Shown here one piece after another: positions 1,346 through 13,545 of a stretch of 64,000 nucleotides of DNA (the stretch's first letter is position 1; every line of letters begins with the position of its first letter). The DNA comes from Pseudocoprococcus catus (GTDB lineage Bacteria > Bacillota > Clostridia > Lachnospirales > Lachnospiraceae): NCBI RefSeq assembly GCF_019734885.1, contig NZ_JAAXCM010000038.1:1-64000 (forward strand), given 5' to 3'. The translations under genes were made by a program, and so were the position numbers. The notes beneath the pieces were generated by a model. It saw only the letters and a program-made list of their open reading frames with translations, had not been told where the DNA came from and did not search any database.

Positions 1346-2614
1346 TTAAAAAATCTTATTTCCAGAGATATATTTATGTAGTAGATCTCCGTTCTCTGAC
1401 AAACAGATATATCGCTCTAACCGCTGTCTGAGGGTGAGGGCCTGTGGGTGCGGCATGCGGCTCTCATCGAGGACAAGGGCGTCAAGTTCGTATCCCGGTT
1501 CGAAACTGCCGACTTTGCCGAAGAAACTGCCGCCGGCTTTTGTTCCCATCCAGAAGATTTCTTCCAGGGTCAGCGGCTTCAGGTTCTGATCCAGCAGTCT
1601 CCAGACGAGCTTGGATACCTGTCTGGCCTCCATCATGGTTCTGAAGATGGAGAGTGTGGCACCTCCGGCTACGTCTGATCCAAGTCCCATATGCACGCCT
1701 ATATCCAGCCACTTTCTCACAGGGGCAATGCCGGATGCAATGTTCATATTGCACTGCGGACAATGGATCGCGTAGGTGTCATTGTCCTTCATCATCTGTA
1801 TCTCCCGTTCATCAGAGTACACACAATGTGCCATGATGGATTTTCTGCCGGGCGCTGCCAAGCCGGCATTTATGTAGGTACCCATATAGTTCTCTGAATC
1901 AGGGCACAGTTCCTTCACCCAGTCAATTTCACTGAGATTCTCGGATAAATGGGACTGGACCGCCAGATGGTTCTCAGAAGCGATCGCCCCAAGTCCCGTC
2001 ATCAGTGCATCGGTACAGCTCGGTGTAAAACGCGGGGTAATGATCGGACGGACATTATGAAATTGTTCCGACTGCATAAGCCATTCTCTGGTTGCTTCCA
2101 ATGAGGCTTCTGCACTTTCCTCACAATAATAATCCGGGCTGTTTCTGTCCATATTGACCTTGCCCACATAGCCCTTTAAACCGGAGGTCTCCAGGAGGGC
2201 CATCAATTTCAATGTAGCCGATGTATGGATCGTCGCAAATGCACAAAAACGTGTCGTCGGACTATACTTCAGATCCTGCACAAACATGCTGTATGCCTTA
2301 TCCGCGTAGGCCGGTTCTTTATAGCCGGATTCTTCCGGAAATGCATAGGTTTCCAGCCATTCCAGCAGTTCCATGTCCATTCCGAGACCTCTGTAAGCAT
2401 ACTGCGGTGCATGCACATGCAGATCGGACAATCCCGGAACAATCATATGCCCTGTGTAATCCAGCACTTCAAAATGCTGATACTTCTCCGGAATCTGTGT
2501 AAATACGCCCATTGATCTGCCGCCCTCACAGATCAGATACGCATCTTCATAGAGCCTCAATGTATCAGAAGTCTCACTGTAACAGATATCACCCTTCATA
2601 ATAAAATTGTTCAT
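1346..2614 (-). CDS. guaD: Guanine deaminase
   Basis: This 422-residue cyclic amidohydrolase converts guanine to xanthine and ammonia in the cytoplasm. Visible are the metal-binding HVH (about residues 66-68) followed by APQYAYRG as in GuaD, further His residues in SHLSEN and MAHCVYS, and the late Asp in GLGSDVAGG. The ATG at 2614 is preferred because GGGTGAT precedes it; in-frame GTG/ATG codons just upstream are possible starts. SsnA-type amidohydrolases are a related alternative, but a guanine-type purine riboswitch with its own promoter lies directly upstream, which strongly supports guanine as substrate. It sits after the xanthine dehydrogenase genes, whose enzyme would take the xanthine further. 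Confidence 0.9.
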   Translation of the reverse strand: MNNFIMKGDICYSETSDTLRLYEDAYLICEGGRSMGVFTQIPEKYQHFEVLDYTGHMIVPGLSDLHVHAPQYAYRGLGMDMELLEWLETYAFPEESGYKEPAYADKAYSMFVQDLKYSPTTRFCAFATIHTSATLKLMALLETSGLKGYVGKVNMDRNSPDYYCEESAEASLEATREWLMQSEQFHNVRPIITPRFTPSCTDALMTGLGAIASENHLAVQSHLSENLSEIDWVKELCPDSENYMGTYINAGLAAPGRKSIMAHCVYSDEREIQMMKDNDTYAIHCPQCNMNIASGIAPVRKWLDIGVHMGLGSDVAGGATLSIFRTMMEARQVSKLVWRLLDQNLKPLTLEEIFWMGTKAGGSFFGKVGSFEPGYELDALVLDESRMPHPQALTLRQRLERYICLSENGDLLHKYISGNKIF

Positions 2615-2729: not shown

Positions 2730-2822
2730 ATAAACTATGAGAAACACGCTTCGCGAGTTTCTCAAGTTATCGCGGCAGTCGCCAAGGTCTCGTGCAAGCA
2801 CGGACTTTGGCTCGTTGCTCGC
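2730..2822 (-). repeat. Two-hairpin structured repeat R2, complete copy
   Basis: Between the riboswitch terminator and guaD, the minus strand carries two strong hairpins. The first pairs CCAAAGTCCGTG with CACGAGACCTTGG around a CTTG loop (one mismatch, one bulge). The second, 2730-2771, has a long stem around GAGAAAC/GTTTCTC. The first 25 bases (2798-2822), with the upstream TAAATAAAAAG-type run, recur at 61271-61307. Neither hairpin is followed by a T-run, so they are not terminators. Function unknown; an intergenic repeat or mRNA stabiliser is possible. Confidence 0.6.
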
Positions 2823-2824
2823 GT

Positions 2825-2938
2825 AAATAAAAAGAAAGGCCGCCGTACAAGCCGACTCTCCCGCCTTCGGGAATTATAGTCGACTGTTTACGGCAGCCGG
2901 TAGAAACGCTCAACCTGATTATGAACATATATAATCCA
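2825..2938 (-). promoter_or_regulatory. Guanine-type purine riboswitch with overlapping terminator (probable ON switch)
   Basis: The aptamer spans 2872-2938 on the minus strand. It has the purine-riboswitch core: P2 GUUCA/UGAGC with a GG-containing loop, J2/3 GUUUCUACC, L3 CCGUAAA identical to the classical guanine aptamer loop, P3 CGGCUG/CAGUCG, J3/1 with GACUAU, and P1 AUUAUA/UAUAAU. The base that pairs with the ligand is C (2879), which indicates guanine rather than adenine. A terminator follows at 2838-2898: GGCUGCCGUA pairs with UACGGCGGCC, inner stems close, and a U-rich run (2825-2837) comes next. Its 5' arm is the aptamer's own P3/L3, so the two folds exclude each other. I infer that guanine binding prevents termination and turns on guaD. 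Confidence 0.88.
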
Positions 2939-2949
2939 TTGATATATTT

Positions 2950-2978
2950 ATTTTACAGTTAATAAGTACTTCTGTCAA
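2950..2978 (-). promoter_or_regulatory. Sigma-A promoter of the riboswitch-guaD unit
   Basis: TTGACA (2978-2973), a 17-nt spacer, and TAAAAT (2955-2950) give a near-consensus promoter directly after the stop codon of the 2Fe-2S subunit gene. Transcription would start a few bases before the riboswitch aptamer. guaD therefore has its own transcript besides any read-through from the upstream operon. Confidence 0.8.
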
Positions 2979-2984
2979 CACCTA

Positions 2985-3437
2985 TTATGCCAGTGACTGA
3001 ATGGCATCCACCATAGCCTGATAGCCTGTACATCTGCAGATATTGCCGGATAAGCCGCGTCGGATTTCTTCCTCCGTGGGCTTCGGATATTTCTGAAGCA
3101 GTGCCACTGTAGACATGATCATGCCCGGAGAACAGAAACCGCATTGAACCGCACCATAATCCACAAAGGCCTTCTGTATCCTGGCCAGCTCCGGATGGGC
3201 CTCAACACCTTCAATGGTCATGACCTGACATCCCTCCGCCTGAACAGCCGGAAACAGACAGCTGTTGACACTTCTTCCATCTACCAGGACCGTGCAGGCA
3301 CCGCAGTCACCTTCGCCGCAGCCCTCTTTTGTGCCCGTCAAATGAAGAATATCTCTCAGCACCTTTAATAATGTGGCATCTTCAGGAATTTCTGTATGAC
3401 AGGCTTCTCCGTTTAAAATAAAATCTAATGTTCTCAT
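2985..3437 (-). CDS. xdhC: Xanthine dehydrogenase, 2Fe-2S subunit
   Basis: The 150-residue protein carries both iron-sulfur sites of molybdenum hydroxylase small subunits. The plant-ferredoxin type site has Cys40, 45, 48 and 60. The second site has Cys99, 102, 134 and 136 in QCGFCSPG and CRCTGY. It passes electrons from the molybdenum centre to FAD. The ATG overlaps the stop of the FAD-subunit gene (ATGA arrangement), so the two are translationally coupled. It is the last gene of the purine operon before the guaD promoter. Naming follows E. coli XdhC usage; substrate assignment comes from the purine context. Confidence 0.9.
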   Translation of the reverse strand: MRTLDFILNGEACHTEIPEDATLLKVLRDILHLTGTKEGCGEGDCGACTVLVDGRSVNSCLFPAVQAEGCQVMTIEGVEAHPELARIQKAFVDYGAVQCGFCSPGMIMSTVALLQKYPKPTEEEIRRGLSGNICRCTGYQAMVDAIQSLA

Positions 3438-4297
3438 TTTTCACATGCCTCCCATAATTCTCTTACAAGCTGCAGTACCACATTGTCTGCCACAGTTTTT
3501 CTATAACTTCCTGTTGCTCGAATATCATCAATCGGTGAAATATCCTCCGACAGGGCAATGGCAATTTCTTCATGAAGAGACTGCCATTTTTCTTCACTGC
3601 CCGGTCTTTTCCAGGCACGCAGCAATTCTTCTGTATGAAATGCACGAAGGGCTGTCGGGCCTGCTGAACCGACGGCGATGGCCAGGGTCGTTATTCTGCC
3701 CGCTTCCTTTTCCATATAAACGGCTGCATTGATGATTGAAATGGCCAGTGCATTCCTTTTGCCGACCTTCCTGAATCTTGCGGCACCCGTTTTGAATGGA
3801 ATGACAATTTCAGTCAGAATTTCCCCCTGATGGATAGCCGTTCGTCCCGGTCCCTTCATAAATCCGTTGATGGATACCATACGCTGACCGTTTTCTGCCA
3901 CAAGAACCAACACTGCATCCAGCGCCATCAGAACCGGCACGGTATCCGCCGCCGGAGAAGCTGACAAAATATTGCCGCCAATGGTTCCTCTGTTGCGGAT
4001 CTGGGGGCCGCCCACAAGGGATGCGGCCTCAGCCAGTGCATCCATGGCACCCTGTCCTCTGAAAGCATCTTCTATAAGGTCAAATGTTGTCAGACTGCCT
4101 ATATGCCAGCCGTCCTTCTCTTCTCTGATGCCTGACAGTTCTTTTAATCGATGCAGACTGACAATATCTCTGTCCAGATATTTGCCCTTTTCTCTGTCCA
4201 CATAGAGATTGGTAGCACCTGCACAGGCCACGCTATTGCCGGATGACAGCATCTGACAGGCCTCTGTTACTGTATTTGGAATCAGCATCTGTGACAT
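3434..4297 (-). CDS. xdhB: Xanthine dehydrogenase, FAD-binding subunit
   Basis: The 287-residue protein fits the medium FAD subunit of molybdenum hydroxylases. It shows an N-terminal CAGATNLYV segment like the family's first FAD loop and a second FAD-binding segment TIGGNILSASPAADT near residues 107-121. It transfers electrons from the 2Fe-2S subunit to the final acceptor. It lies 104 bp after a small membrane-anchored protein gene and overlaps xdhC by 4 bp. Separation of the Mo subunit gene (9699-11783) from this pair by the transporter genes is unusual but all lie on one strand. Confidence 0.9.
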   Translation of the reverse strand: MSQMLIPNTVTEACQMLSSGNSVACAGATNLYVDREKGKYLDRDIVSLHRLKELSGIREEKDGWHIGSLTTFDLIEDAFRGQGAMDALAEAASLVGGPQIRNRGTIGGNILSASPAADTVPVLMALDAVLVLVAENGQRMVSINGFMKGPGRTAIHQGEILTEIVIPFKTGAARFRKVGKRNALAISIINAAVYMEKEAGRITTLAIAVGSAGPTALRAFHTEELLRAWKRPGSEEKWQSLHEEIAIALSEDISPIDDIRATGSYRKTVADNVVLQLVRELWEACEK

Positions 4298-4401
4298 CTC
4301 TATCCCCCACTATCCTTTTTATTTTTTCGTCATCCTTCCATGACTCATATTTTATGCATTCTTTCAAAGCGCACTTTTTTCGCCGGACATCTGGTCGGCA
4401 G

Positions 4402-4938
4402 CTATTCCGTCCCGGATTCCGTTTCTTCATCTTCCGGATACTCTTGCTCTGTATCAAAATAACTCTTCAGATCATAGGTCACTGTATCAAATTTGTCCAG
4501 ATAGCTGCCGTCCAAAAAGTCATCAAAATCCTTGATATGCCAGTTGGAATCCTCATAAACAAGTCCCACTTCATAGACCATTCCCGGCAATCTGGCTGCC
4601 TGGGAATAATAAGCAGTGCCGGTTGTCCCGTCTTCATTGAGTTCTACTCTGTCATAATTAATAAAAAGCGGCGTCAGATACGGATAGGACCGTTCTTTCT
4701 TAAAAGCCCGGATAAACTCACTTTTATCCATAACCTTTCGGAAGTCATCTGTCATAAATTCATAAATAACCGCAGGATTCTCATACTGATAATCAATAGC
4801 CTCCGCATAGGCCATAGCTGCTTTCTCAGCGGAGACCTCAGAAGGTCCATCAGCTGCATGTTTCATACTGGTCACAACCGTTATACCCGCAATGATGACA
4901 ATCAGCAGTACGATGATGATTTTGGTTGTCTTCTTCAT
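4402..4938 (-). CDS. Small membrane-anchored protein of unknown function
   Basis: The 178-residue protein begins with a positively charged end and one hydrophobic segment (about residues 7-24), with no lipobox Cys, so it is probably anchored with the rest outside the cell. The soluble part has alternating helix and strand patterns (AMAYAEAIDYQYENPAVIYEFMTDDF...) like NTF2/SnoaL-type or DUF4878-type folds, and it ends in an acidic tail. It starts 2 bp after the transporter permease gene and lies before the xanthine dehydrogenase FAD subunit, so it is in the purine operon. I do not recognise a family with certainty. A role near the transporter is only a guess from position. Confidence 0.75.
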   Translation of the reverse strand: MKKTTKIIIVLLIVIIAGITVVTSMKHAADGPSEVSAEKAAMAYAEAIDYQYENPAVIYEFMTDDFRKVMDKSEFIRAFKKERSYPYLTPLFINYDRVELNEDGTTGTAYYSQAARLPGMVYEVGLVYEDSNWHIKDFDDFLDGSYLDKFDTVTYDLKSYFDTEQEYPEDEETESGTE

Positions 4939-4940
4939 TC

Positions 4941-5885
4941 CTATCGCTCCAATCGGGAATAAGGAATCGTATAAGCACTCGGGAATTCCGCCTTCTTGGA
5001 AGCAAAGATCAGCGCTGCAATGGTCATGATATACGGCAGCATCAGCATCAGCTGATTGGCCATATCAATGCCCAGGGCCTGAAGACGCATCTGAAGGGCA
5101 CTGGCAAAACCGAAAAGCAGCGCACCCCACATGGCTCTCACCGGCATGAAACGAGCAAAAATAACAACAGAAACGGCGATAAAACCACGGCCGCTGACAA
5201 TGGATTCTGTGAAAAGATTCATATAAGCAATAGACATAAATGCACCTGCTGCACCGGCATAAAGACCGCCGATGAGTACCGCTGCATAACGGACACCTGC
5301 CACACTGATACCCTTGGAATCTGCTGCGCGCGGATGCTCGCCCACGGCACGGATCTTTAACCCGAATGTTGTTTTTTCAAGGATAAACCATGTCACAAAT
5401 ACCATCACATAGCTGAGATAAACCAGAATATTATGCTGGAAGAAAATCTGTCCGATCACCGGAATAGATGATAATACCGGAATATTCACGGCTGCAAACG
5501 GTGTTACCTGAGGCGGCAGACTCTGTACACCAAAAAGGATACGATATACATAAACCGCTGTACCCGCACCAAGAATATTCAGGGCAATACCCGCGATGAC
5601 CTGATTGGCACGCATGGTGACTGAAAGCCATGCCATGATCAGACTCCACAGCATACCGAAAAACATACCTGACAAAAGTCCAATCCAGAGATTGCCAGTT
5701 TTATATGCTGCTGAAAAACCTGCGACGGCTCCGATCGTCATTGTTCCTTCTACACCCAGATTCAGAATACCTGCCCGCTGTGTATAAATCTGTCCCAGCG
5801 CTGGAAGAAGAATCGGTGTTGCCAGACGGATGGTTCCCGCCAGTAAACTCACTAAAAATCCTACTGTAAAAATACTGCTAAGCAT
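4941..5885 (-). CDS. nupQ: Nucleoside ABC transporter permease (NupQ/YufQ type)
   Basis: This 314-residue membrane protein belongs to the BPD_transp_2 permease family used by BMP-type nucleoside importers. It has about eight hydrophobic segments and the family stretch GVEGTMTIGAVAGF near the N-terminus. It overlaps the partner permease gene by 8 bp. Together the two permeases form the membrane channel for the ATPase at 6933-8456 and the lipoprotein at 8584-9681. Between purine deaminases and xanthine dehydrogenase, the likely cargo is purine nucleosides or bases. Confidence 0.9.
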   Translation of the reverse strand: MLSSIFTVGFLVSLLAGTIRLATPILLPALGQIYTQRAGILNLGVEGTMTIGAVAGFSAAYKTGNLWIGLLSGMFFGMLWSLIMAWLSVTMRANQVIAGIALNILGAGTAVYVYRILFGVQSLPPQVTPFAAVNIPVLSSIPVIGQIFFQHNILVYLSYVMVFVTWFILEKTTFGLKIRAVGEHPRAADSKGISVAGVRYAAVLIGGLYAGAAGAFMSIAYMNLFTESIVSGRGFIAVSVVIFARFMPVRAMWGALLFGFASALQMRLQALGIDMANQLMLMLPYIMTIAALIFASKKAEFPSAYTIPYSRLER

Positions 5886-6936
5886 CTTTTTTCCCCTTCC
5901 TCAGTAATTTCTGCGGCCATCCGAAATGAATCGCTGTTCTTGCAATAACAAAAACGATCACCAGGCCCTGAATAATATCTACAACAGAATATGGTACTTC
6001 TGTCATACGCTGCATGGTTGCACCGCCCACAAGAAGGGCTGAGAAAAAGAAGGAAGCGATCACAATACCCAATGGATTCAGACCACCAAGCAATGCGATG
6101 ATCGTTGCGATATCCCCGTAGCCGCTGGAAAGGCCTTCCAAAAGTCTGTACTGAACACCATACACTTCATTCCATCCAGCCAGACCGCAGAGTGCACCGG
6201 AAATCAGCATGGCCACCATGACTGTCTTCTTCACATTCACACCTGCATAGGTTGCGATCTTATCACCCTGTCCGATCAGATCAATCTTCACGCCCAGCTT
6301 TGTTCTCCAGAAGAAAAACATCATAAGAATAACAATGATTGCCACCACAATACCGCCGTGGATTCGCATCTGTGCAGAGAACAAAGGCAGATGATAGGCA
6401 TCCGGCAATACTTTTGACTGCGGGAAGCCGCCGCCGTCAGGATCCATCATCGGACCATAGACGAGAAATGCCAAAAAATAGGTTGCAATATAATTCAGCA
6501 TCAAAGTTGTGATAACTTCATTGGCATTAAAACAGTTTTTTAGCCAGGCTGCCAGCCCGCACCAAAGGGCACCGCCCAGAACAGACAATATCAGGGACAG
6601 CGGAAGTAAAATCACTGTCGGAAGTCCCAGATAAATACCTGGAAGAATGGCCAGAATCGCGCCAATGGTCAGCTGACCATTAGCACCGATATTCCAGAGC
6701 TGTGCCTTGTAAGCGATGGACATACCAAGTGCCATCAATGTCAGCGGAATCATTTTGACAAGGACTTCGGATATCCTGGCTTTAGAGCCAAGGGCTCCTC
6801 GAAACAGTGTTGTATATGCTTCTGCCGGGTCATTGCCTGAAATCCGTACAAGAATCGCACCCACTGCCAGTGCGAGAACAATCGTCAGTACCGCAATAAC
6901 AAATTGTTTGATACTGTTGATGATTTTTGAATTCAT
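5878..6936 (-). CDS. nupP: Nucleoside ABC transporter permease (NupP/YufP type)
   Basis: A 352-residue polytopic permease of the BPD_transp_2 family, longer than its partner by an N-terminal segment. The typical WNIGANGQLTIGAILA stretch is seen around residues 84-99. It overlaps the ATPase gene by 4 bp (ATGA) and the second permease by 8 bp, which shows tight translational coupling. It should pair with NupQ to form the heterodimeric channel of the importer. Confidence 0.9.
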   Translation of the reverse strand: MNSKIINSIKQFVIAVLTIVLALAVGAILVRISGNDPAEAYTTLFRGALGSKARISEVLVKMIPLTLMALGMSIAYKAQLWNIGANGQLTIGAILAILPGIYLGLPTVILLPLSLILSVLGGALWCGLAAWLKNCFNANEVITTLMLNYIATYFLAFLVYGPMMDPDGGGFPQSKVLPDAYHLPLFSAQMRIHGGIVVAIIVILMMFFFWRTKLGVKIDLIGQGDKIATYAGVNVKKTVMVAMLISGALCGLAGWNEVYGVQYRLLEGLSSGYGDIATIIALLGGLNPLGIVIASFFFSALLVGGATMQRMTEVPYSVVDIIQGLVIVFVIARTAIHFGWPQKLLRKGKKDA

Positions 6937-8456
6937 GCCTTTTCCTCCTGTTTGTGTCCCATCATCAGCATACCGATTGTATTTGTATCGGCGCCTGCCG
7001 GAAGGATACCCATTATTTTGCCGTCATAGATGACAGCGATTCTGTCCGAGAGCTGCAGGATTTCCTCAAGATCCGCAGATACAAGAAGAACTGCTGCACC
7101 ATCATTACGTGCATCCAGAATTTTCTGTCTGACATATTCCGATGCACCGATATCAAGGCCTCGTGTCGGCTGATTGGCAATAACCATCTCCGGATGATCA
7201 TCCAATTCTCTGGCCAGAATAACTTTCTGCTGATTACCGCCGGATAAGGCTCTTGCATGGTCTTCTCCGGAATTGGCCTTAATCTGATATTCTTTCTGAC
7301 ATTTATCCCAGTAGGCATCAATGGCCTTCTGATTCAGCAGCCCATTTTTTGAAAATGGCGCTTTGTGGAACTTCTTGATGATCAGATTCTTCTTAAGGCT
7401 CCAGTTCAGTGCCAGTCCGGTTGTCATTCTGTCCTCAGGAATATGGGAAATACCACTGTTGATATAGAAAACAGGCGGTTGATTGATCACTTCTTTTCCT
7501 TTAAAAAGGAACTGTCCGCCATCCGCTTTTCTAAGACCGGTCAGGACTTCACATAATTCCTTCTGTCCGTTGCCGTCTACACCGGCCAGACCGAGGATTT
7601 CTCCCTCATGAACAGTCAGATTGAAATCTGTCAGTGCCGGAAGTCCTTTGTCATTGCTGGCTGAAAGACCCTTCAGTTCCACTTTCACTGCTCCGGGAGC
7701 TTTCTTATTCTTGTCGAAATTAAACAGAACATCCCTTCCCACCATCATTTTCGTCAGTTCTTCTTTGGTTGTATGCTCATCAACCAGTTTGGATCCTATC
7801 AGCTCACCATCTCGTAAAACAGTGACTTCATCAACGATAGAAATAATCTCTTCCAGCTTATGGGTGATCAGAATGATTGATTTACCGTCCGCTTTCATAT
7901 GCCGCAGCATATCAAAAAGTACATTGGCCTCCTGAGGTGTCAGAACCGCTGTGGGTTCATCCAGGATCAATATATCTGCTCCCTGATAAATGGCTGTTAA
8001 AATCTCTACTCTCTGCTGCTCACCAACGGATAACTGCCAGATTTTTGAATATGGATCAATATTCATTTTGTATTTGTCTGCCAGTTCCTTCAGTTCCGTT
8101 GCAGTCTCCTTTGTATCAAGAAGAATGCCTCTTCTGGACTTTTTGCCCAGCATAACATTCTCCACAACTGTCATCGGTCTGGCCAACATAAAATGCTGAT
8201 GCACCATACCGATGCCGAGAGAGATTGCTTTTATCGGTGATGAAATTTCTTCTTTGCTGCCGTTAATATAAATATCACCGGCCTCCTGCTGATATAAACC
8301 ATACAGGATATTCATAAGTGTTGTCTTTCCGGCACCATTTTCTCCTAACAGACCATGGATTGAACCTTTCCTCAGATTGAAATCCACGTTGTCATTGGCT
8401 TTGACACCGTTAAATATTTTTGTTATTCCCTGCATACTGACTGCCAGATTGTCCAT
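6933..8456 (-). CDS. nupO: Nucleoside ABC transporter ATPase, tandem domains (NupO/YufO type)
   Basis: The 507-residue protein has two fused ATPase domains. The first carries Walker A GENGAGKTT, a degenerate signature LSVGEQQ and Walker B LILDEPTAVLTP. The second has the weak P-loop GVDGNGQKE and the signature LSGGNQQK. One strong and one degenerate site is normal for ribose/nucleoside importers. The start has AGGAGG 8 nt upstream. It follows the binding-protein gene after a 127-bp hairpin-rich gap and overlaps nupP. Confidence 0.92.
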   Translation of the reverse strand: MDNLAVSMQGITKIFNGVKANDNVDFNLRKGSIHGLLGENGAGKTTLMNILYGLYQQEAGDIYINGSKEEISSPIKAISLGIGMVHQHFMLARPMTVVENVMLGKKSRRGILLDTKETATELKELADKYKMNIDPYSKIWQLSVGEQQRVEILTAIYQGADILILDEPTAVLTPQEANVLFDMLRHMKADGKSIILITHKLEEIISIVDEVTVLRDGELIGSKLVDEHTTKEELTKMMVGRDVLFNFDKNKKAPGAVKVELKGLSASNDKGLPALTDFNLTVHEGEILGLAGVDGNGQKELCEVLTGLRKADGGQFLFKGKEVINQPPVFYINSGISHIPEDRMTTGLALNWSLKKNLIIKKFHKAPFSKNGLLNQKAIDAYWDKCQKEYQIKANSGEDHARALSGGNQQKVILARELDDHPEMVIANQPTRGLDIGASEYVRQKILDARNDGAAVLLVSADLEEILQLSDRIAVIYDGKIMGILPAGADTNTIGMLMMGHKQEEKA

Positions 8457-8480
8457 TTACAAATCCTCCTGTGTTTGAAC

Positions 8481-8567
8481 GTCCCTGTGTTTTTCAGAGA
8501 AGGGACACACAGCCCACGGGCTGTGCATCCATCTCCCATTGTCGGAATGGTTGTCTGCACTGCAGAC
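8481..8567 (-). other. Three hairpins between bmpA and nupO
   Basis: The gap between the binding-protein gene and the ATPase gene holds three inverted repeats: GTCTGCA/TGCAGAC (8553-8567), an 8-bp stem CACAGCCC/GGGCTGTG (8508-8525), and GTCCCT/AGGGAC (8481-8506). None is followed by a T-run. Such structures after a binding-protein gene often stabilise the upstream mRNA or partly stop transcription so that the binding protein outnumbers the membrane parts. That role is inferred. Confidence 0.55.
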
Positions 8568-8583
8568 ATGACTCCTGTTCTGA

Positions 8584-9681
8584 TTACTGAATATCTTCCG
8601 GCAGATAGTCTTTGATTTCACCAGACTGAAGTTTGGACCATGTATCCGCAATCACCTGCTTGTCATCGTCTGTCAGCCAGCCCTTAGGATCATTAATGTC
8701 TGCAATACCTAAACCATCATTTTCAGCATTGATCCAATAGTATCTGTCATCTTCTGCTCTGCCTTTGAATGTACCATTGTTGATATCATCAAAAACATTG
8801 GCAATAATGGCATCCCACTGATAAACAACACCTGATAATACATTGTTTTCAGCTAATGTCTTCTGGTCTGCTACGTTGCCGAGGCAGTACATATCTTTTT
8901 CAGCAGCTGCCTGAACAACACCAAGACCAATACCATCTCCTGAATGCCAGATAACATCCACGCCAGCGTCATACATACCGATAGCTGCTTCTTTTGCTCC
9001 GGCTGTATCTGTCCAGTCACCTGTGTAAACTTCCTGGATCTCGATATCAGGATTGATAGATTTCGCACCAGCCTTGAAGCCTTCATGACCACGTTTGATC
9101 TCGGAAGCATCTGCACCGCCGATAACACCGATCTTATTTGTCTGTGTTGCCAGTGCTGCGATCACACCCATTTCATAACCGCCTGCTTCAAGTTCTACAT
9201 CATAGATAGCTGTGTTATCCAGTGATTTGTAGCCTGTACCAAGCAGGAAATAGGTATCCGGATACTGAGCGCCAACTTTGACGATTGGCTCCATGAACTG
9301 GAAGCCATGACCAAAAATAACGTCATAACCCTGATCAGCAAAATCCATCAGTGCAGGTTCGATATCTGCAACTTCATAAACATTCTCAGTTACATTCAGG
9401 TCAATCTTGTCCGGATTGGCATCTGCATACTTCTTCATACCTTCATACATTGCCTGGTTGAAAGATACGTCATCTTTTTTGCCAGGAAGAATCAAAGCCA
9501 CTTTCAATTTCTTGCCTGCTGTCTCTGCTGAAGCTGTATCAGCTGTTGATTCTGCTGTTGTTGCAGCAGCAGATTCACCTGCTGCTGTCTCCTTTGAGGA
9601 TGAACTGCCGCATCCTGCAAAAGAACCGACAACCATGGCCAGTGTCAGAAGTCCTGCCATCCATTTGAGTCCTTTTTTCAT
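8584..9681 (-). CDS. bmpA: BMP-family nucleoside-binding lipoprotein
   Basis: The 365-residue protein is the extracellular substrate-binding part of the importer. It has a lipoprotein signal (MKKGLKWMAGLL...) with lipobox SFAGC, so Cys23 becomes the lipidated N-terminus. A Ser/Ala/Thr-rich linker follows (about residues 25-55), and the BMP/Med domain starts near KVALILPG. The segments GHGFQFMEPI and IGVIGG are typical of PnrA/BmpA proteins. It begins 17 bp after the xanthine dehydrogenase Mo-subunit stop. Purine nucleosides are the expected ligand from family and neighbours. Confidence 0.92.
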   Translation of the reverse strand: MKKGLKWMAGLLTLAMVVGSFAGCGSSSSKETAAGESAAATTAESTADTASAETAGKKLKVALILPGKKDDVSFNQAMYEGMKKYADANPDKIDLNVTENVYEVADIEPALMDFADQGYDVIFGHGFQFMEPIVKVGAQYPDTYFLLGTGYKSLDNTAIYDVELEAGGYEMGVIAALATQTNKIGVIGGADASEIKRGHEGFKAGAKSINPDIEIQEVYTGDWTDTAGAKEAAIGMYDAGVDVIWHSGDGIGLGVVQAAAEKDMYCLGNVADQKTLAENNVLSGVVYQWDAIIANVFDDINNGTFKGRAEDDRYYWINAENDGLGIADINDPKGWLTDDDKQVIADTWSKLQSGEIKDYLPEDIQ

Positions 9682-9698
9682 CTCTTTTCCTCCTTTGG

Positions 9699-11783
9699 CT
9701 ATTTCTTTAAGCCATTTAAAATAGTTTCTATATCGAAAGGCAAACTGGTCAATCTGCCTTCTGATACCTCATTAATTGCCGCAGCGATCGCCGGAGCGAT
9801 AGATACGGTGGATACCTCTGCAGCGCCCTTGACGCCCATCGGTCCCGACGGTTCATAACCATCCACATGCAGACTCTGAATCCGCGGCAAATCCATGGCC
9901 GTGGGCATCAGATACGTAGACATACTGTCATTGAGTAATCGTCCCTCTTTAAATTGACAATTCTCACCAAAGGCATAGCCCACAGACATAGCCACACCGC
10001 CTTGAATCTGTCCCGCCATCGCCAACGGATTGATAATTCTTCCTGCTTCCGTTGCTGCTGCAATATCCAGAAGCACTACCTGCCCTGTGACAGGATCCAC
10101 CCGAAGCTTCACAGCCTGGGCAATAAATGTATACATCGCATGCGGGAAACCGGCGATGGAAAAACTTTCCTCACTCTCAGGGAAATCTGCCTTTCCTGTT
10201 TCCATCTCGCCTTTTTTAAAATTCTCTATGGCATTGAGCATGGCATTGCCGCCGATAAATGTGGAACGGGAACCGGCCGTAGATCCGCAGTCCAATGTTC
10301 TGTCGGTATCTGCCATCACAAGGGAAACATTGTCAAAATCTGTCTCCAGAGCATCCGCCGCCATAGCCTGCAGTGCCGTCCGGCTTCCCTGTCCGATATC
10401 TACCAGACCAAGGAAAATTGTATAATGGCCATCTGCTTCTTCAATCTTCACCTCTGCCTGATCCGGAATATTCTTGCCGAGACCGCAGCTTAGGTGCCCG
10501 CCTGCAATGCCGTATCCGACATATGGATCCGTATTGTATTTTCTCTCCTGCCAGAGTTCAGACTGTTCGATCAGCTTCAGTGCCCCTTTAAAGTCCACGA
10601 AATGGCGCATTTTCTGTCCGACGCCGCCGTACATGCCTGTCTCAATACCATTCTTGTAACGGATTTCCAGCGGATCAATGCCTAAAAGTTTCGAAGCCCT
10701 GCTGATCAGAGATTCTGCCGCAAAAGCGCCCTGGGGTGCCCCAAAACCTCTCATGGCATGAGCCACCGGTTTATTGGTATAGCAGAGATGACTGCTGATC
10801 TTTACATTCGGAATATTGTACGGTCCTGCAAAATGCTCTGAAAAAAGGCTTAACACAGCCGGCCCCAGGCCGCCGTAAGCACCTGTATCCAGATAACCGC
10901 TGCCGTCAAAGGCCACCATCGTTCCGTCTTTCTTAAAGCCCATCTTCACATGCATATAGACCGCATGTCGTTTATAGGTTGTTGCCAGGGATTCCCGACG
11001 ACTGAAAATAAGCTTGCAGGGACGTCTCGTCTTAAATGCCGCAAGAGCCGTAAACAGCTGTGCGGTACTGCCGTCCTTACCGCCGAAACCGCCGCCAACA
11101 GTGGCTGCTACAATATGTACCTGATCTTCTGTAAGACCTGTAATATCACAGACCATTCTCAAATCATGAAAAACATTCTGTGTTGAAGAACAGACAAGCA
11201 GACGCCCATCCTCCTCAATTTTCGCCATGCAGGCGTCCGGCTCCATATAGCCATGGTCCTGTATCGGCGTATAAAAATCATCTTCAAGGATCAAATCACT
11301 CTCAGCAAACCCCTGTGCCACATTGCCTTTTTCGTTATCAAAACGAATCACATCATTCTCTGTATCGTCATGCACCCGGATACAGCCGGGTTTTGCTGCC
11401 ATCAATGCATCCGTGACAACCTGAAGGGGTTCGTACGTCACCTGCACCATTGCTGCAGCTGCCCTTGCTGCTTCTTCGGATTCAGCTGCCACAACAGCAA
11501 TGGCTTCACCAAGAAATCGTGCTTTATCCTCCACCAACAGCGGCTGATCCGGCAGAATGTCCTGAACATTGTTCTTCACAATGTCTTTCGCTGTAAAAAC
11601 CCAGGCCGTCTCAGGCACCTTCGATGTATCGATATCCAAAACCCTGGCATGGGCATACGCTGATCGGACAATCGCCAGATGCAGCATATTTTTCTCATAA
11701 TAATCTGCCGCATACACCGCTCTGCCGGTGGCCTTGTCCATGCCTTCCACGCGGCCCCGGCCTTTTCCCGTGTAACTTTCCAT
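9699..11783 (-). CDS. xdhA: Xanthine dehydrogenase, molybdenum-binding subunit
   Basis: The 694-residue protein has the two domains of molybdenum hydroxylase large subunits. It shows the N-terminal GKGRGRVEGMDKATGRAVYA region, the cofactor motif VGGGFGGKD (about residues 230-238), AMRGFGAPQ, and near the C-terminus VKGAAE with the expected catalytic Glu position (GVGE in most homologues). It is somewhat short for the family (about 750). With XdhB and XdhC it would oxidise hypoxanthine to xanthine and on to urate. The ribosome site lies within the end of the adenine deaminase gene 1 bp upstream, so the two are coupled. Confidence 0.9.
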   Translation of the reverse strand: MESYTGKGRGRVEGMDKATGRAVYAADYYEKNMLHLAIVRSAYAHARVLDIDTSKVPETAWVFTAKDIVKNNVQDILPDQPLLVEDKARFLGEAIAVVAAESEEAARAAAAMVQVTYEPLQVVTDALMAAKPGCIRVHDDTENDVIRFDNEKGNVAQGFAESDLILEDDFYTPIQDHGYMEPDACMAKIEEDGRLLVCSSTQNVFHDLRMVCDITGLTEDQVHIVAATVGGGFGGKDGSTAQLFTALAAFKTRRPCKLIFSRRESLATTYKRHAVYMHVKMGFKKDGTMVAFDGSGYLDTGAYGGLGPAVLSLFSEHFAGPYNIPNVKISSHLCYTNKPVAHAMRGFGAPQGAFAAESLISRASKLLGIDPLEIRYKNGIETGMYGGVGQKMRHFVDFKGALKLIEQSELWQERKYNTDPYVGYGIAGGHLSCGLGKNIPDQAEVKIEEADGHYTIFLGLVDIGQGSRTALQAMAADALETDFDNVSLVMADTDRTLDCGSTAGSRSTFIGGNAMLNAIENFKKGEMETGKADFPESEESFSIAGFPHAMYTFIAQAVKLRVDPVTGQVVLLDIAAATEAGRIINPLAMAGQIQGGVAMSVGYAFGENCQFKEGRLLNDSMSTYLMPTAMDLPRIQSLHVDGYEPSGPMGVKGAAEVSTVSIAPAIAAAINEVSEGRLTSLPFDIETILNGLKK

Positions 11784-11784
11784 G

Positions 11785-13545
11785 TTACGCCTCCGTCTCT
11801 ACGATCATATCAATAATCTGATGGCCCAGTACATCAATCAGGCCAAAATCTGTCAATCCCAGTTCCGGCACTGTCGGAAGAGAAATAAAGGATAACGACA
11901 TAAATGGTGCTTTCATCGGGCATCCCATCTTCTCAACTGCTCCATTCATTTCATCCATCCGCTTCATCACTGTTTTCGCTGGAAGAGTGGACATCAGACC
12001 GCCAAGAGGCAATGCCAGTGCGTCAACCACCTGTCCCTCCACTGCCGAAACAAAACCGCCGTGAAGTTCCTGAAGCTTTTCGACGCAGACAGCCATATCC
12101 CTGTCATTGGTTCCCACCACAACAATATTGTGATGATCATGAGAAACCGAAGCTGCCAGAGCTCCCTGTTTCAGTCCAAAACCATGCACCAGAGCTGTAG
12201 AAACACGGCCATTTTTGCCGTATCGTTCGACAACAGCCAGCTTCAGAATATCTCTGTCCACATCCGCTGCAATCTGTCCTTCCTTGACATCCATCCACTC
12301 AAAGATCTCTTTATTAATAATCTGGTCCTTGATCAAATCAATGACACGGCATTTGGCACGTTTGCCCTCAGAATGGATGATAAACTTCTCCGCTGAAAAA
12401 TCTGCACCAATATGAACGGTATCAAATAACTTCTCAGGATAAGCTTTCTCAGGCACCGGACGGGCACCATTCTCGTCTGCCACAATACGTCCGCTCTTTA
12501 ACACAAGCTTCGGCTTCATGGTTGTCAGATCATCAATCAGAAGAATATCGGCGAAACGTCCCGGTGCCACTGAACCGATTTTGTCTTCCAGGCGAAAATG
12601 CTTGGCCGCATTGATGGTTGCCATCTGAATCGCCTGTACAGGGTCCAGTCCCAATTCAATGGAACGCTTCACATTGTAACTGATATGGCCTTCCTTGAAA
12701 ATATCGTTGACATGCTTGTCATCTGTACAAAACATCATATTGTCTGTCGGCAGATTGTTCTTCACAATACCCGGCACCAGTGTATCTACATTGCGTTCAC
12801 TGCTGCCTTCACGGATCAACGGCATAATACCAAGTCTCAGGCGTTCTAACAGCTCTTCATAATAAACTGATTCATGGTCATCACTAAGATGTCCGGCTGC
12901 GTAAACATTCAGATCATCCACACCCAGTCCAATGGCATGGCCATTACAGATCTTGCGTCTGTTCAGGCTGGCCAGTACCTTTTCTAAATATTCTTCCTTC
13001 GTACCAAGGACTTTGGAAGGATCCAGTTCACCAAGGCTCACTGCCTCATCCAGTTCCAGCAGCTGCGTTACTTCCTCAACCCCCAGCACACCGCCTGTTG
13101 TCTCAAGTCCAGGCGCTGTAGGTACTCTGGAAGGGATCTCAAGAAGCAGTCTGAAAGGCAGCTTCTCTGAATCCTTGATCATTGCCAGCAGACCGTCAAT
13201 ACCTGCCACGTTGGCAATTTCCATGGCATCCACACAAAGTGTTGTTGTTCCCCATGGAATAATCACCTCACCCAGAGCTTCCGGTGTCAGAAGCGTCGTC
13301 TCGATATGAATATGGGAATCTATAAGGCCCGGAACAGCATAAGCACCCGCGCCGTCAATCACCTGATCCGCCTCTGTTTCAACACAGCCAACAGCCACGA
13401 TTCTTTCATTATAAATACCGATGGAGGCCGGATAAATCTCCCGCGTAAAAACATTCACCAGCTGGATATTGTCAATACGCACATCCAGTTTACGTGTGCC
13501 TTTTGAAGCCTCCAGTTCTGTTTTCATAATTGCTGCTGTATACAT
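11785..13545 (-). CDS. ade: Adenine deaminase
   Basis: The 586-residue protein matches bacterial Ade, which hydrolyses adenine to hypoxanthine and ammonia. It has the amidohydrolase start with HIHIET after GLIDS, the CTDDKH motif in the middle, and a C-terminal domain containing SHDHHNIVVVG with the His pair typical of Ade. AGGAG lies 7 nt before the ATG. It is the first structural gene after the GntR regulator and feeds hypoxanthine to xanthine dehydrogenase. Confidence 0.93.
   Translation of the reverse strand: MYTAAIMKTELEASKGTRKLDVRIDNIQLVNVFTREIYPASIGIYNERIVAVGCVETEADQVIDGAGAYAVPGLIDSHIHIETTLLTPEALGEVIIPWGTTTLCVDAMEIANVAGIDGLLAMIKDSEKLPFRLLLEIPSRVPTAPGLETTGGVLGVEEVTQLLELDEAVSLGELDPSKVLGTKEEYLEKVLASLNRRKICNGHAIGLGVDDLNVYAAGHLSDDHESVYYEELLERLRLGIMPLIREGSSERNVDTLVPGIVKNNLPTDNMMFCTDDKHVNDIFKEGHISYNVKRSIELGLDPVQAIQMATINAAKHFRLEDKIGSVAPGRFADILLIDDLTTMKPKLVLKSGRIVADENGARPVPEKAYPEKLFDTVHIGADFSAEKFIIHSEGKRAKCRVIDLIKDQIINKEIFEWMDVKEGQIAADVDRDILKLAVVERYGKNGRVSTALVHGFGLKQGALAASVSHDHHNIVVVGTNDRDMAVCVEKLQELHGGFVSAVEGQVVDALALPLGGLMSTLPAKTVMKRMDEMNGAVEKMGCPMKAPFMSLSFISLPTVPELGLTDFGLIDVLGHQIIDMIVETEA

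Follow-up and report, generated by a model that had tools for sequence, protein, structure and literature searches.

A predicted guanine ON riboswitch before a putative guanine deaminase gene of Pseudocoprococcus catus, with likely counterparts in Lachnospiraceae

Introduction

How does a sensor known as the textbook OFF switch come to stand before a gene of guanine breakdown? In the window, a stretch of 64,000 nucleotides from Pseudocoprococcus catus (contig NZ_JAAXCM010000038.1), a guanine-type aptamer precedes guaD on the minus strand, and the original prediction, made from the letters of this DNA, held that ligand binding should block termination and switch the gene on. Sequence comparison and computed folds make it probable that the locus is a transcriptional guanine ON riboswitch. 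The sensor itself is known; its wiring as an ON switch for purine breakdown, apparently throughout the family, was not found described in the openly licensed literature. If such family-wide use is real, the pathway would determine in which direction the switch works, and rewiring behind an unaltered sensor would be easy. Gut bacteria would then have a candidate direct regulator of purine degradation, and synthetic biology a source of natural guanine ON parts.

The sensor and the genes around it

The covariance model RF00167 is matched in the leader over the full length of the model, at 59.5 bits (E 9.6e-8; the gathering score is 37). The match has the following parts, placed by the RF00167 alignment and, for the discriminator, also by the letters.

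2857..2954 (-), purine riboswitch aptamer of the guanine type
2937-2930/2878-2871 (-), helix P1
2926-2922/2912-2908 (-), helix P2
2907-2899 (-), junction J2-3
2898-2894/2886-2882 (-), helix P3
2893-2887 (-), loop L3
2879 (-), discriminator C (C74)

The core motifs are GUUUCUACC, CCGUAAA and GACUAU with C at the discriminator position, just as the original prediction had read them, and all its coordinates hold when checked on the letters. C74, U51 and U22 and the standard J2-3 and J3-1 of guanine-I aptamers are present, GUUUCUACC and GACUAU align without insertion, and the pocket residues and the L2-L3 GG/CC contact are fully retained. An adenine riboswitch, which requires U74, is ruled out by the C at 2879, and a guanine-II or xanthine-II variant, compared with the description in PMC9295807, by the lack of J2-3/J3-1 insertions and of U51G. 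This aptamer is the only purine riboswitch found in the 3.6-Mb genome.

Which genes could such a sensor control? The neighbourhood on the minus strand reads as follows, from the far end of the cluster towards guaD.

11785-13545 (-), adenine deaminase
9699-11783 (-), molybdopterin subunit of xanthine dehydrogenase (XDH)
8584-9681 (-), BMP-type binding protein
6933-8456 (-), ABC ATPase
5878-6936 and 4941-5885 (-), permeases
4402-4938 (-), gene without assigned product
3434-4297 (-), XDH FAD subunit
2985-3437 (-), XDH Fe-S subunit (xdhC-like), ending at 2985
2950..2978 (-), sigma-70-type promoter TTGACA-17-TAAAAT, just past the xdhC-like stop codon (consensus match only)
1346..2614 (-), guaD, guanine deaminase homologue (TIGR02967, Amidohydro_1), downstream of the riboswitch

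The cluster at 2985..13545 (-) thus comprises purine catabolism and uptake, with a GntR-type regulator at its far end and guaD at its end. The guaD product matches TIGR02967 with E 2.4e-97 and 326.5 bits, which is under the cut-off of 375.4 but makes this by far the best family, and the purine-catabolic context supports its assignment as a putative guanine deaminase. The gene probably starts at the ATG at 2614, with GGGTG upstream, while an in-frame GTG at 2623 is possible. The promoter at 2978-2950, also foreseen, has 11 of 12 consensus matches and is the best site of the region, where promoter-like matches overall are not above chance (14 against 11.8 expected). Since the riboswitch lies between the cluster and guaD with no terminator between, it would gate transcription from its own promoter as well as read-through.

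Two mobile or repeated elements adjoin guaD. An IS200/IS605-type Y1 transposase gene lies directly downstream (719-1213, -), and a dispersed two-hairpin repeat occupies 2731-2828 (-) within the guaD leader, right after the riboswitch U-tract. Elsewhere in the genome some 50 complete or incomplete copies of this repeat match, and several of them follow U-runs or terminators immediately. It also occurs with 92-97% identity in fecal phage records (L204, MT835472.1, 301-408; MT835784.1, 17926-18028), of which the one inspected carries no annotation.

Could the natural inducer be a purine other than guanine, such as hypoxanthine, xanthine, a nucleoside or 8-oxoguanine, acting through the same ON layout? 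The common guanine aptamer favours guanine over hypoxanthine and xanthine by a factor of only about 10 (PMC9295807), one guanine-type aptamer of C. difficile reportedly prefers xanthine (PMC11477304), and xanthine dehydrogenase and adenine deaminase genes surround the locus. Yet at each known pocket position the aptamer has the residue typical of the guanine class, and guanine is the predicted substrate of the guaD product, which leaves another inducer unlikely; we infer that guanine is the ligand.

How the predicted terminator consumes the aptamer

Downstream of the aptamer, and partly inside it, lie the parts of a three-part hairpin.

2889..2898 (-), outer 5' arm GGCUGCCGUA, that is the P3 5' strand and L3 (letters, leader fold, family comparison)
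2838..2847 (-), outer 3' arm UACGGCGGCC (letters, leader fold, family comparison)
2878..2885 (-), middle 5' arm AGUCGACU, overlapping the P3 3' strand, J3-1 and the discriminator C (letters, leader and growing-transcript folds)
2850..2857 (-), middle 3' arm AGUCGGCU (letters, leader and growing-transcript folds)
2858..2873 (-), nucleating hairpin UUCCCG-AAGG-CGGGAG, its 5' side overlapping the P1 3' end (leader and growing-transcript folds)
2829..2837 (-), U-tract UUUCUUUUU (letters)

The outer helix pairs 2898-2889 with 2847-2838 over 10 bp, exact except for one U-G, and is followed by the U-tract. It had been recognised from the start as a terminator using the P3/L3 strand, but the structure was understated, as a middle helix (2885-2878 with 2857-2850, 8 bp) and the nucleating hairpin (2873-2868 with 2863-2858, 6 bp) belong to it too. 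Of 2000 shuffled versions of the 32-nt stretch, 19 equal the outer helix taken alone; the whole leader folds with -46.9 kcal/mol (z -3.9), and none of 200 shuffles was equally good. Because the hairpin consumes P3/L3, the P3 3' strand with J3-1, and the end of P1, aptamer and terminator are mutually exclusive, as expected of an ON switch.

Most described guanine riboswitches are OFF switches, in C. difficile all four of them (PMC11477304), and so is the common class (PMC9295807); an ordinary OFF switch before guaD would need a terminator that is made of downstream sequence only and forms when the aptamer has bound its ligand. It is very improbable here: with the aptamer held folded, the rest makes no more than a weak hairpin, in which part of the U-tract is paired, the stretch downstream of the aptamer folded alone does no better than shuffles, and the xpt-type OFF layout, which is present in relatives, is clearly different. 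A downstream-only terminator was accordingly rejected after scan, constrained fold and comparison with shuffles, and neither leader scan nor folding found a second strong terminator before guaD besides the three-part hairpin, as had been predicted. The dispersed repeat was also considered as source of the terminator and rejected, as its other copies start at TTTACG after the U-tract and have unrelated flanks.

How would an ON switch of this kind operate? In folds of the growing transcript the aptamer is the minimum-energy structure up to 2863, followed by a stepwise takeover by the terminator hairpin, which when finished beats the aptamer fold by 18-20 kcal/mol. Because of this difference guanine could not reverse the outcome at equilibrium, and control would have to be kinetic, settled during elongation as in pbuE. 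RNA polymerase would start at 2978-2950 or read through from the xdh genes, and the aptamer would be made first, since until about 2863 it is the most stable structure the transcript can form. In the absence of ligand, the UUCCCG/CGGGAG hairpin would nucleate at the distal end of P1, and the terminator would then displace step by step P1, J3-1, the P3 3' strand and last L3 and the P3 5' strand, so that the polymerase would terminate at the U-tract without reaching guaD. If guanine is bound, the invading strand would be held off by P1, the junction and the L2-L3 contact until the polymerase has passed, guaD would be made, and the substrate guanine would thereby induce its own deaminase.

Wiring of purine aptamers in Lachnospiraceae

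Is the ON layout an exception of this locus? Purine aptamers were collected from 64 of 299 Lachnospiraceae genomes, 81 loci in all, and grouped by downstream gene; a locus was called ON when the best helix adjoining the U-tract starts inside the aptamer and OFF when it starts after it. Altogether 46 loci were ON, 15 OFF and 20 undecided; as the classifier takes the best helix, ON calls are somewhat inflated, shuffled downstream DNA being called ON in 8.4% of cases. By downstream gene the calls (ON/OFF/undecided) are as follows.

guaD: 18/2/9
xpt or BMP lipoprotein: 1/9/0
FAD oxidoreductase: 10/1/6
xanthine dehydrogenase molybdopterin subunit: 4/1/0
MATE transporter: 3/0/0
adenine deaminase: 1/0/0
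NCS2 permease: 4/1/5
other genes: 5/1/0

The wiring differs between guaD and xpt/BMP loci (Fisher p = 3.5e-5), albeit this p is optimistic, since the loci share descent and are not independent. Native pairing averages -14.1 kcal/mol against -8.2 kcal/mol when downstream parts are swapped between ON loci and the partner search is redone for each swap. Moreover, changes in P3/L3 are matched in the terminator 3' arm (A-U to G-C at positions 8, 9 and 12, U-A to C-G at 11), and the locus of the window has compensatory A-U to G-C changes at three P3 positions. The predicted pbuE-like layout therefore gains from mutually exclusive pairing that recurs with compensatory changes at most classifiable guaD aptamers, while xpt/lipoprotein loci are OFF; the idea of an ON case among OFF switches stands as to the wiring but not as an oddity of one locus, the layout being common in Lachnospiraceae. 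That the locus is a constitutive attenuator with a relic, non-switching aptamer and a far too stable terminator would fit the energy excess of the finished hairpin, but is the least probable reading in view of the fully kept pocket and L2-L3 GG/CC contact, the three-strand covariation in relatives and the fact that known kinetic ON switches are likewise terminator-dominated at equilibrium.

Even before guaD, ON control does not always work by termination: the family set includes nine guaD loci in which no terminator was recognised and two with a stand-alone hairpin. The proposed search of other genomes for aptamers before guaD was fruitful: among named genomes of Lachnospiraceae and neighbours, 40 of 60 guaD loci have a purine aptamer upstream, and where it lies within 400 nt, 27 of 36 are without a terminator accepted by the classifier. 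In many Mediterraneibacter the aptamer stands about 55 nt from the guaD start codon without a terminator, which implies another platform there, perhaps a translational one. At six loci (L099, L101, L110, L118, L130, L140) the guaD start-codon region (AUGAAUCUAU) can pair with the J1-2/P2 5' part of the aptamer, a possible translational ON arrangement, but the pairing energies do not stand out against control segments taken from these genes, and for the named loci the start position is offset. The 30 top-scoring loci of a class-wide draw, mostly from other Clostridia and biased to high-scoring aptamers, comprise 12 OFF, one borderline ON and 17 undecided, none of them before guaD.

C74 is present at every parsable locus, while position 73 is variable, some ON loci having U, C or G there. 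Compact purine aptamers, mostly ON-wired, were seen at L077, L085, L092, L102, L104, L105, L107, L111, L117, L121 and others, several with U, C or G for A73 and 6-nt L3 loops, for which altered specificity is possible. At 17 loci the aptamer precedes a FAD-dependent oxidoreductase gene (Pyr_redox_2/FAD-depend_C), a candidate purine-catabolic gene (L078, L081, L086, L088, L096, L098, L103, L108, L114, L116, L122, L123, L125, L128, L137, L147, L148). L011 has divergent purine riboswitches at 2456-2551 (-) and 2844-2939 (+), one before guaD and the other on the opposite strand, and L012 is alike.

Judged by sequence, ON-wired guanine aptamers stand throughout Lachnospiraceae before guaD and before genes for xanthine dehydrogenase, transporters and FAD oxidoreductases, the guaD locus described here being one clear member. 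Whether they form a guanine-induced purine-catabolic regulon is about an even bet: a compact guanine-aptamer lineage with short L2/L3 and, in part of its members, U, C or G in place of A73 would have been rewired by at least two terminator layouts (P3/L3; J3-1/P1) before guaD, xanthine dehydrogenase, transporters and the FAD oxidoreductase, some members perhaps with shifted ligand preference.

Comparison with known riboswitches

The 8-oxoguanine riboswitch of Paenibacillaceae, reportedly described in PNAS in 2023, is said to be a guanine-riboswitch variant that acts as ON switch before 8-oxoguanine deaminase; it would resemble the guaD switch in controlling the deaminase of its own ligand, but differs in its altered pocket and ligand, the guaD aptamer being canonical. 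The B. subtilis pbuE adenine aptamer has U74 and its gene encodes an efflux pump, whereas the guaD aptamer has C74 and guaD encodes a degradative enzyme. In layout the two are alike: the pbuE switch is ON, its terminator forming at the expense of P1 and P3 from a nucleator hairpin beyond P1 (PMC7707468), and before guaD the terminator 5' arm likewise lies inside the aptamer and excludes P1 and P3.

Described guanine-I switches are OFF (PMC9295807; PMC11477304), and the openly licensed literature yielded no paper in which a guanine-I aptamer switches on guaD or a catabolic regulon. The xpt-type guanine OFF riboswitches (RF00167) share aptamer family and pocket with the guaD switch but have the opposite wiring and serve the opposite pathway, salvage and uptake. 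ON purine switches are nevertheless already known or predicted, namely pbuE, xanthine-II and guanine-II. A report of 2022 described xanthine-II with an ON layout at purine degradation genes, guanine-II, predicted to be ON, at phosphoribosyltransferase genes, and a nucleoside-sensing ON variant (PMC9295807). Guanine-II of Paenibacillus is like the guaD switch guanine-sensing and predicted ON, but it has J2-3/J3-1 insertions and precedes phosphoribosyltransferase genes, whereas the guaD aptamer has ordinary guanine-I junctions. Xanthine-II shares the scaffold, ON-type overlapping terminators and purine-degradation genes, and is set apart by U51G and junction insertions, both absent from the guaD aptamer.
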